From a sulfur-oxidizing endosymbiont of Gigantopelta aegis (GTDB lineage Bacteria > Pseudomonadota > Gammaproteobacteria > GRL18), in assembly GCF_016097415.1 (NCBI RefSeq), contig NZ_JAEHGE010000001.1, positions 1,513,515-1,577,514 of the forward strand: DNA of 64,000 bases. Reading direction: 5' to 3'. The notes beneath the pieces were generated by a model. It was not told where the DNA came from. It saw only the letters and a program-made list of their open reading frames with translations, and searched no databases. Position numbers and translations under genes: made by a program. Positions 32,738-35,309 of this stretch are shown piece by piece (position 1 is the stretch's first letter; every line of letters begins with the position of its first letter).

Positions 32738-33340
32738 TTAATGAGGCTGGCTAGAGGTCATTGCTTGCAGTTTAGATTCATCGTCTGAAATAAACCGACT
32801 GATATTCTGGATAATTCGATTGAGCCATGTGGGCCATTGCTCAAAATCAATACCATCAATGGTATTTTTTATCTCCAGACCCAGCTCAGTATCACCCTCA
32901 ATAGTCAGTCGGCGTTGAAAAAATAAGGTGTCCGGATCTTCCTTGCGACTCGCCAATAAAACAAATTCCTTGACATTACCACTGAAAATGACGTCAGCTT
33001 GAGCAATATCTTCCCCAAGGATTAAATGCTCATCTTTAAAACTGAGAAAAAAATTCAAATCGGCATCATTGATATGAATGTGTAACCATCGATCCTCCAG
33101 ACAGTCAAAATCACCCATTTCAACGGGTTCTGCCAGCAATGATTGTAATATGCTTTCACCGATTTTTTTTTGGATAAAAAAAGGTGGCTCAGGTAAATGT
33201 TTAACAATACTAGGCAACGTTGTAGTGAGTTGTCGGGCGAATCGATGGCTCATTTTCGAGAATAGAGCATCAGGTCTTGGGGGAGTAGGGGTTGTATTTT
33301 TCATAAGGCTAATAGTGCAATAAATCACTCGGTTATTCAT
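32738..33340 (-). CDS. ubiT: UbiT, SCP2-domain lipid-binding factor for O2-independent ubiquinone synthesis
   Basis: 200 residues from the ATG at 33340. An internal ATG at 33304 would give 188 residues starting MKNTTPTP. SCP2 domain (about residues 45-150) with DFDCLEDRWLHIHINDADLNFFLSF and ADVIFSGNVKEFVLLASRKEDPDTLFFQRRLTIEGDTELGL, the typical YhbT/UbiT segment. UbiT binds isoprenoid lipids and works with UbiU and UbiV under anoxia. It is divergent from ubiUV across a perfect FNR box that touches the upstream start codon; if the downstream ATG is used, an FNR-spaced transcript would begin near it. Confidence 0.9.
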   Translation of the reverse strand: MNNRVIYCTISLMKNTTPTPPRPDALFSKMSHRFARQLTTTLPSIVKHLPEPPFFIQKKIGESILQSLLAEPVEMGDFDCLEDRWLHIHINDADLNFFLSFKDEHLILGEDIAQADVIFSGNVKEFVLLASRKEDPDTLFFQRRLTIEGDTELGLEIKNTIDGIDFEQWPTWLNRIIQNISRFISDDESKLQAMTSSQPH

Positions 33341-33381
33341 TGATCACCATCAATTCAATTTCAATGATGAAATGATAACAT
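33340..33381 (+). promoter_or_regulatory. FNR/Anr box and class II promoter for ubiUV
   Basis: TTGATCACCATCAA at 33340-33353 is a perfect TTGAT-N4-ATCAA FNR consensus. Placing its centre at -41.5 puts the start site near 33388 and the -10 hexamer at 33376-33381, where the sequence is TAACAT, a four-of-six match to TATAAT at exactly the class II spacing. The ubiU start codon at 33410 would have a leader of about 22 bases. E. coli ubiUV is FNR-activated, so this fits known regulation. Promoter activity itself is predicted. Confidence 0.85.
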
Positions 33382-33409
33382 CAGTTTTTTATCAAATGCA
33401 TAGTGACAT

Positions 33410-34408
33410 ATGATTGAACTTGTTTGCCCCGCAGGTAATTTTCCTGCCCTAAAAGAAGCAGTGAATAATGGTGCCGATGCGGTCTATATTGGTTTTAAAG
33501 ACGATACCAATGCTCGACACTTTGCCGGATTAAACTTTAACGAAAAAAATCTCCCCCGTGCTATTGATTATGCTCATCAGGCTGGGACAAAAGTTTTTGT
33601 CGCAATCAATACCTATCCGCAACCTTCGGGTTGGTCTCGTTGGCAAAAAGCCGTGGATATGGCGGCAGATTTGGGCGTGGATACGGTCATTATTGCCGAT
33701 ATCAGTATTCTTGATTATGCCGCTAATAAGCACCCCCAAATGACCCGACACTTATCCGTGCAAGGCTCAGCAACCAGCTATGAATCACTGCGTTATTATC
33801 AGCAAAATTTTGGTATCAAACGTGCTGTTTTACCCCGGGTCTTATCACTGTCACAAGTGGCAAATCTAGCACAGCAATCCCCCGTCGAATTGGAAGTGTT
33901 TGGCTTTGGTAGCTTATGTATTATGGCTGAAGGGCGCTGTCACTTATCATCTTATGTCACCGGCGAATCCCCTAATACCTGTGGTGCTTGCTCACCGGCA
34001 AAGTCCGTGCGTTGGGAGAAAACCCCACAGGGACTAGAATCACGTTTAAATGATGTGCTAATCGATCGCTATGACGACAATGAAAATGCCGGCTATCCAA
34101 CCCTATGCAAGGGACGTTTTTCAGTGGGCAATGATACCTTTCATGTCTTGGAAGAGCCAACCAGCTTGAATACGATTGCCATCTTGCCAGATTTAGATCG
34201 CATTGGTATCAAAGCAATAAAAATTGAAGGGAGACAGCGCAGCCCTGCTTACACCCAACAAGTCACTCAAGTATGGCGTGAGGCAATTGATAGTTACTAT
34301 GCTCAACCGGAAAATTACCAAACACAGGCGCATTGGTCAGCAGCATTGGACAAGGTTTCTGAAGGCTCACAAACGACTTTAGGCGCCTATAGCCGGCCAT
34401 GGCAATGA
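33410..34408 (+). CDS. ubiU: UbiU, 4Fe-4S peptidase U32-family protein for O2-independent ubiquinone hydroxylation
   Basis: 332 residues. With UbiV it hydroxylates the ubiquinone ring without O2, using prephenate as oxygen donor in E. coli. Peptidase U32 fold (MIELVCPAGNFPALKEAV, EVFGFGSLCIMAEGRC). Four Cys at 170, 177, 194 and 233 are spaced as the E. coli [4Fe-4S] ligands; Cys191 is extra. An FNR-type promoter lies directly upstream. ubiV follows after 10 bases. Confidence 0.95.
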   Translation: MIELVCPAGNFPALKEAVNNGADAVYIGFKDDTNARHFAGLNFNEKNLPRAIDYAHQAGTKVFVAINTYPQPSGWSRWQKAVDMAADLGVDTVIIADISILDYAANKHPQMTRHLSVQGSATSYESLRYYQQNFGIKRAVLPRVLSLSQVANLAQQSPVELEVFGFGSLCIMAEGRCHLSSYVTGESPNTCGACSPAKSVRWEKTPQGLESRLNDVLIDRYDDNENAGYPTLCKGRFSVGNDTFHVLEEPTSLNTIAILPDLDRIGIKAIKIEGRQRSPAYTQQVTQVWREAIDSYYAQPENYQTQAHWSAALDKVSEGSQTTLGAYSRPWQ

Positions 34409-34418
34409 GAGAAAAACA

Positions 34419-35309
34419 ATGAAATTATCCCTGGGCCCTCTACTTTATTTCTGGTCGCATGATGATATCACTGACTTTTATCAGAAAATGCTAGCAACGC
34501 CAGTCGATATCCTCTATCTGGGCGAAACAGTCTGTTCAAAACGTCGTGCTTTAGGTTTTGAACAATGGCTAGAATTGGCAAGAGAGTTGGGTAAAAGCAA
34601 AGAAGTGGTATTATCAACCTTATCATTAATCGAAGCCGAGTCAGAGCTCAAAACCCTAAGGCGATACTGTGATAATGGTGAGTTCACCATTGAAGCCAAT
34701 GATATGGCCGCAGTACAAATGCTAAGTGAAAAGAATATTCCCTTCACGATTGGTCCGACGATCAATGTCTATAATGCACAAACGCTAGCAATCTTGCACC
34801 GTCAGGGTCTACAACGCTGGGTGATGCCAGTAGAACTATCACAACAGACATTATTGGAAATACTGCAAGCACTGGAAACTCTTGGTATTAAAGATAAAAT
34901 AGAAACTGAAATCTTTAGCTATGGTTATATGCCCTTAGCATTATCCGCACGTTGCTTCACGGCCAGAGCCAATAATTTACCCAAGGATCAATGTGAATTA
35001 AAATGCCTTGATTATCCCGGTGGGATGTTGGTAAAAAGTCAGGAAGAGCAAAATATCTTTACCTTAAATGGTATTCAAACACTTTCAGGCTCACCTTATG
35101 ATTTGTATCATGAGCTAAATGCAATGCAAGAGATGGGCGTTGATATTGTGCGTATCAGTCCGGAAAAAACGAACACGGCAAAAATCATTGAAGCCTATCA
35201 AGCAAAAATAAATAATGCTAATCCGACAATTTCTTATAAACTAGATGATCACTGCAATGGTTATTGGCATGGTGAACCGGGGATGCTACAGCATAGTGAA
35301 CAAGCTTAA
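34419..35309 (+). CDS. ubiV: UbiV, 4Fe-4S partner of UbiU
   Basis: 296 residues, U32-family. Cys39 (ETVCSKRR), Cys179, Cys192 and Cys196 (ARCFTARANNLPKDQCELKC) match the cluster ligands known for UbiV. It forms a heterodimer with UbiU for anaerobic ring hydroxylation. It is co-transcribed with ubiU and convergent with the kinase gene ending at 35439; a palindromic element lies between them. Confidence 0.95.
   Translation: MKLSLGPLLYFWSHDDITDFYQKMLATPVDILYLGETVCSKRRALGFEQWLELARELGKSKEVVLSTLSLIEAESELKTLRRYCDNGEFTIEANDMAAVQMLSEKNIPFTIGPTINVYNAQTLAILHRQGLQRWVMPVELSQQTLLEILQALETLGIKDKIETEIFSYGYMPLALSARCFTARANNLPKDQCELKCLDYPGGMLVKSQEEQNIFTLNGIQTLSGSPYDLYHELNAMQEMGVDIVRISPEKTNTAKIIEAYQAKINNANPTISYKLDDHCNGYWHGEPGMLQHSEQA

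Follow-up and report, generated by a model that had tools for sequence, protein, structure and literature searches.

A single FNR-type box, lying in the gap between the divergent genes ubiT and ubiUV, probably serves two class II promoters that are mirror images of one another, and the two arms of the oxygen-independent ubiquinone pathway would then be induced jointly once oxygen is lost. We place the probability of this reading, which is drawn from sequence, at roughly three in four. It is carried less by the box itself than by what surrounds it: a promoter slot on either side, each at the distance expected of class II activation, and the preservation of this arrangement among related genomes whose flanking sequence has diverged. 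A more specific and more tentative proposal, developed below, is that in the present genome the ubiT message has no leader, its start codon coinciding with the start of transcription.

The ubiTUV locus

The window, by which we mean the whole stretch of 64,000 nucleotides that was analysed, belongs to a genome of 4.91 Mb in 11 contigs (99.91% complete). All three genes of the set for oxygen-independent ubiquinone synthesis are found there as neighbours. On the minus strand, ubiT (32738..33304) encodes 188 residues when read from its shorter start, MKNTT. On the plus strand, ubiU (33410..34408) is followed by ubiV (34419..35309). Each passes its NCBIfam equivalog cut-off (NF047962, with the longer form of UbiT as the query, NF047963 and NF047965 respectively). 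Two ubiquinone hydroxylases also score above cut-off in the genome. An aerobic route to ubiquinone exists, then, and UbiTUV would provide the molecule without oxygen. Profile searches of the genome gave no match above cut-off for MenD (three weaker matches were found) and none whatsoever for MqnA/D, so that ubiquinone may be the sole quinone available here for anaerobic respiration.

One box with a predicted promoter slot on either side

A preliminary description of this DNA had pointed to an exact FNR/Anr consensus between the divergent ubiT and ubiUV. It is indeed present: the box TTGATCACCATCAA occupies positions 33340..33353 and agrees with the consensus at 10/10 positions, while TTGATnnnnATCAA has one exact match only in the 64-kb window, namely 33340-33353. 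As the centre of the box is at 33346.5, class II spacing places the +1 of ubiUV at 33388 on the plus strand, with a predicted leader of 22 nt, and the -12..-7 slot at 33376-33381. This slot reads TAACAT, and the TGA found at 33373-33375 extends it into a candidate extended -10 element, TGA-TAACAT (33373..33381, plus strand). Both the start at 33388 and the presence of TAACAT in the -10 slot had been proposed beforehand, and the arithmetic is correct.

The same spacing can be laid out on the other strand. As had also been rightly calculated, a distance of -41.5 then gives a ubiT +1 near 33305, next to the shorter ubiT ATG, the A of which is at 33304. The predicted start region of ubiT on the minus strand is thus 33304..33305, with a leader of 0-1 nt. 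What had gone without mention is that the mirror slot, 33312..33317 on the minus strand, holds CACTAT, a putative -10 element at equal spacing from the box. The two predicted starts are 83 bp apart. Both predicted +1 bases, at 33388 and at 33305, are non-purine, the one on the ubiT side being followed by the A of the ATG. A consensus scan of 33200-33480 detected no sigma-70-type promoter endowed with a -35 element of its own.

Conservation of the arrangement within the family

Twenty-four genomes of the same family were searched, that of the window included. UbiU has a strong match in 17 of them (86-100% identity), one of these matches (L101) being cut at residue 306 by a contig end; the other seven have a distant U32 paralogue only. 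In two loci (L088 and L090) the contig extends no more than 167 and 97 nt ahead of ubiU, and their exclusion leaves an assessable set of 15 genomes: our own and 14 relatives. In the wider screen of 101 loci, 43 had a near divergent ubiT, comprising these 15, four duplicates (L005-L008, apparently the same contigs as L089, L092, L096 and L098 to judge by equal lengths and matching positions, and counted once) and 24 others. The 15 family genomes are related, and they must therefore not be taken as independent observations.

Alignment of the ubiT-ubiU gap in relatives had been suggested as a check, and it finds the box kept in all 15 assessable genomes (10/10 positions in 11 of them, 9/10 in the other four), no close relative in the set lacking it. 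The spacing from box to slot is identical in the 15 genomes on both sides. The slot facing ubiU invariably fits TGATAnnAT, and the slot facing ubiT, at the mirror distance, invariably fits CAnnAT. Mean pairwise identity is 0.86 in the ubiU slot and 0.78 in the ubiT slot; it is 0.60 (ubiU side) and 0.75 (ubiT side) in the spacers that separate box and slot, and it drops to 0.32-0.39 in the 26 bases beyond each slot. Across the family the predicted ubiU leaders range from 22 to 211 nt, with the box-to-slot spacing constant throughout. The conserved block thus spans one -10 slot, the box and the other -10 slot, and then ends, as two class II promoters arranged round one site predict. At the level of sequence, this mirror-image footprint, invariant in 15/15 assessable family genomes, speaks for the earlier suggestion that one site could drive both arms.

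The two halves are not of equal quality. On the ubiT side all 15 genomes have a C at -12, at odds with the sigma-70 consensus, and by motif this half is therefore the weaker one. On that side, moreover, the interval 33312-33323 (minus strand) reads TTAnnGCAnnAT without variation in our genome and its 14 relatives, and both the invariant C at -12 and the G at -13 are outside what the -10 consensus explains. We also note that two of the long ubiU leaders, those of L095 (151 nt) and L101 (115 nt), both hold GCCATTTGACTCCGACCCCTTTT together with an upstream stretch complementary to its first part; this is perhaps an inverted-repeat element.

The ubiT start codon and its leader

The residues that follow the shorter start, MKNTT, are comparable in all 15 genomes. 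Counted from this start, the predicted ubiT leader has 0-1 nt here, 1 nt if the +1 is at 33305, versus 25-40 nt in the other 14, the relatives' starts having been assigned by the analyst from a comparison of frames. In five relatives (L086, L087, L092, L093 and L096) another ATG is found in frame 9-12 nt before the assigned one, and its use would reduce their leaders to 17-18 nt; in L089 and L095 in-frame ATGs are found further upstream. Inspected by eye, the leaders of the relatives display no strong ribosome-binding motif. These comparisons are most simply explained if this lineage lost some 25 nt from the stretch that separates the ubiT -10 from the ATG. The predicted +1 at 33305 would be a T, directly followed by the A of the ATG; a message beginning with its AUG is therefore plausible, and the ubiT mRNA is probably leaderless in this genome, a suggestion made beforehand that the comparison of leaders backs indirectly.

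Chance level and other boxes in the genome

How much weight can be given to the box as such? When the window was shuffled with its dinucleotides preserved, exact boxes appeared at a mean of 0.3 per shuffle, at least one being present in 57 of 200 shuffles. An exact box in 64 kb is not rare, therefore, and the box alone is weak evidence; its placement and its conservation carry the weight. The whole genome contains 40 exact boxes, split by a simple ORF caller written for this analysis into 17 outside and 23 inside ORFs.

Around the 17 boxes outside ORFs, hexamers resembling a -10 element peak at offset 22, the class II position, where they occupy 6/28 gene-facing flanks, versus 0-4 of 28 at other offsets. 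In five-base windows the figures are 12/28 around the class II offset versus 3-8 elsewhere. Of these 28 flanks, some come from three adjacent boxes that precede a single gene, one belongs to the ubiT/ubiU locus and two belong to another locus. Among the 23 boxes inside ORFs, used as a control, 1/46 flanks has such a hexamer at offset 22, but 9/46 have one at offset 39, a peak due in part to repeated copies. The within-genome test of offsets is accordingly modest and noisy, and peaks at a lone offset can be noise or repeats.

Several of these other boxes deserve a description of their own. A second perfect box (G000:C1:3375500-3375513, within L143, G000:C1:3374000-3377000) has TATAAT and TATCAT at its two class II slots. 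It is flanked by arfB (NF006718 above cut-off) and by a gene resembling an ABC-transporter substrate-binding protein (below cut-offs), its centre being 99.5 and 97.5 bp from the start codons. At another locus (L134, G000:C1:2415400-2418600), three perfect FNR boxes are grouped in some 200 bp ahead of a cytochrome gene, taken here to be nirS-like, its protein, which is cut, matching cytochrome c models only, all below cut-off; the divergent gene resembles a c-type cytochrome. A perfect box also precedes a nosZ-type gene, 190 bp before the start codon; the assignment comes from 300 submitted residues with a score of 362 bits, the cut-off for the whole protein being 625.

The arrangement outside the family

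Among the 24 divergent ubiT-ubiU loci found outside the family, the mirror layout is absent in most. In eight loci of enterobacterial type, a site with 7-8/10 positions is accompanied by TAnnAT exactly where class II spacing puts the -10 of ubiU. None of the nine Aeromonas loci has a site with a class II hexamer under the criteria of this analysis. Hexamers near both slots round one site were seen at 2/24 loci. In the first, from Proteus faecis (L060), a 7/10 box upstream of ubiU has its two slots filled, at the exact distance, by TACAAT and TAAAAT, and this may be an independent instance of the mirror layout at ubiT/ubiU. In the second (L083), the box has 9/10 positions, the right hexamer being exact and the left one 1 nt off.

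Mirror-image class II FNR boxes were also considered as a general rule, and the idea was rejected. Class-wide, the strict mirror pattern occurs in 7/369 genomes (8 sites, 2 of them at the ubiT/ubiU locus in two genomes), versus 4/369 genomes (4 sites) for a control in which the spacing was made 5 nt shorter on each side; a second control, with the pattern read backwards, was unfair and was set aside. The mirror pattern being little above its spacing control, we claim no general enrichment. On present sequence comparisons, the mirror layout would be a trait of the family studied here, and is not shown as a general rule. One site in another family (L155, G115:C45:5241-5310) is worth recording nonetheless: its slots, in mirror arrangement round the box, contain TATGAT on one side and TATAAT on the other. 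A gene on the TATAAT side, presumably coding for a cytochrome bd oxidase subunit-like protein, begins at 233 bp from the centre of the box; on the other side no long ORF is found close by.

Candidate regulators and rival explanations

The genome encodes FNR (306.7 bits for NF008365, whose cut-off is 228), and the FNR gene itself has a perfect box upstream. Near its N-terminus the protein has a C-x2-C-x5-C motif, followed by a later cysteine, residues that we assume to be the ligands of an Fe-S cluster. A second protein of the same kind (G000:C1:2057521, L162) resembles DNR: its best match among solved structures is 3dkw (DNR), with an E value of 4.2e-41, and it passes no NCBIfam cut-off. This DNR-like protein might use the same box at ubiT/ubiU.

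It is conceivable, then, that the main regulator is this nitric-oxide-responsive DNR-type paralogue, alone or with FNR, and that ubiquinone synthesis is tied to denitrification rather than to oxygen alone. Such a view is favoured by the match to 3dkw, though this comes from a protein below the NCBIfam cut-offs, and by the precedent of Dinoroseobacter shibae, where the site shared by nirS and nosR2 has DnrD as its main regulator and FnrL as co-regulator (PMC5398030). Against it, transcription of ubiUVT depends on Fnr in Escherichia coli and on Anr in Pseudomonas aeruginosa, and we regard the paralogue as an unlikely candidate for the leading role. Another possibility concerns the division of labour between the two sides: the box would drive ubiUV only, as a class II site, the conserved block on the ubiT side being the site of another regulator or an upstream contact of the polymerase, with ubiT expressed otherwise. 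In its favour are the ubiT-side CAnnAT with its off-consensus C at -12, the invariance of TTA (-18..-16) and of a G (-13), bases that a -10 consensus leaves unexplained, the better conservation of the ubiT-side spacer (0.75 vs 0.60) and the FNR-independent ubiT promoter known in E. coli (PMC10470549). Yet the mirror slot is precisely where the conserved hexamer is found, conservation falls right past its last base just as it does on the ubiU side, and the scan of 33200-33480 for sigma-70-type consensus promoters gave no other candidate. We consider this restricted role of the box improbable.

Two further explanations fare worse still. UbiT could be translated in its longer form, the ATG of which, at 33340, touches the box, if transcription began upstream of the box. 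In our genome this frame is open, and a GGTGA stretch directly precedes that ATG; this longer form is, however, open and in frame in 3/15 genomes only (our own, L089 and L095), as against the 15/15 in which the residues following the shorter start are comparable. We rejected it as very unlikely. Finally, the box could be a chance palindrome, the true promoters being elsewhere. That 57/200 shuffled windows contain an exact box, and that 23/40 boxes of the genome are inside ORFs, speaks for this view, but chance hardly accounts for a box and two slots kept in 15/15 genomes when the bases beyond the slots have diverged, and we give this explanation next to no credence.

A proposed model for a shared site

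Retaining the reading of one site serving two promoters, we may sketch how the locus would work. Loss of oxygen would activate FNR, which would bind the box at 33340-33353. The dimer, centred at -41.5 with respect to either start, would contact RNA polymerase and recruit it to one side or the other. Because the starts are only 83 bp apart, two polymerases would overlap at the box, and one dimer would probably act in one direction at a time. The ubiT and ubiUV arms would then be coupled, and may compete. In this genome only, some 25 nt would have been lost, bringing the ATG of ubiT to the start point. Put together, the proposal is that throughout this gammaproteobacterial family one FNR dimer commands two mirror class II promoters with one polymerase engaged at once, that competition fixes the ratio of UbiT to UbiUV, and that ubiT is leaderless here, its start codon being the transcription start. 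So composite a picture is somewhat doubtful as a whole, and we advance it tentatively.

The locus would be a compact test case in which one pathway has its two divergent operons tied together by a single oxygen-sensor site. The 15 genomes constitute a natural series in which the promoter halves are kept and the sequence beyond them has diverged. And the presumed loss of the ubiT leader would be a natural event for which close relatives are available as controls.

Comparison with known systems

A possible precedent for the sharing of a regulatory box by divergent genes is an ANR box common to nirS and nirQ in Pseudomonas, of which the literature that we consulted gave no confirmation.

The closest functional parallel is in E. 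coli, where ubiT and ubiUV are likewise divergent and both activated by Fnr in anaerobiosis (PMC10470549). This activation involves two separate sites, F1 and F2, and mutating one spares the other arm; ubiT has in addition an aerobic, FNR-independent promoter (PMC10470549). The eight loci of enterobacterial type mentioned above, with their TAnnAT at the exact ubiU slot, carry a site that resembles F1. The locus studied here differs in that a single perfect palindrome lies between both predicted promoters, with no second promoter detected in our scan. As for the geometry, 19 of 23 FNR-activated promoters of E. coli with known starts are reported to have their site at -41.5 plus or minus 4. In a broader survey of Pseudomonadota, 96% of the cases of ubiTUV architecture 3 are predicted to have an FNR site in the gap where ubiU and ubiT diverge (PMC11707229); its main text deals with counts of sites and distances to start codons, and not with leader loss, the sharing of one site or the pairing of -10 elements.

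The closest structural parallel is in the alphaproteobacterium D. shibae, where the nirS/nosR2 and hemA3/dnrE pairs have shared Fnr/Dnr sites, 39.5 and 41.5 bp from the two starts (PMC5398030). Reporters for either direction of nirS/nosR2 required the regulators, and nirS was no longer expressed once the site had been mutated (PMC5398030). There as here, one palindrome lies between divergent genes, at a similar distance from the starts in D. shibae and from the predicted starts at ubiT/ubiUV; the D. shibae case concerns other genes and was tested, whereas that of ubiT/ubiUV is drawn from sequence. The mostly open-access literature that we consulted, including PMC10470549, PMC11707229, PMC12825309, PMC5398030, PMC3688515, PMC10247376 and PMC3299288, yielded no description of ubiT and ubiU sharing one site with -10 elements paired round it.

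Competition between polymerases has been described at bidirectional promoters of E. coli, which transcribe divergently from symmetric DNA (PMC12825309). The symmetry is there inside the promoter elements, whereas here it would be that of back-to-back promoters arranged round an activator site, with predicted starts 83 bp apart. When synthetic CRP sites were added at an unrelated bidirectional promoter of E. coli, one direction was raised and the other repressed (PMC12825309), which indicates that such competition is possible in principle, not that it happens at ubiT/ubiUV. Control of ubiTUV by FNR and the sharing of one site by divergent genes were thus both known already; what the present analysis would add is their combination at ubiT/ubiUV, kept across a family, together with the loss of a leader in one of its members.
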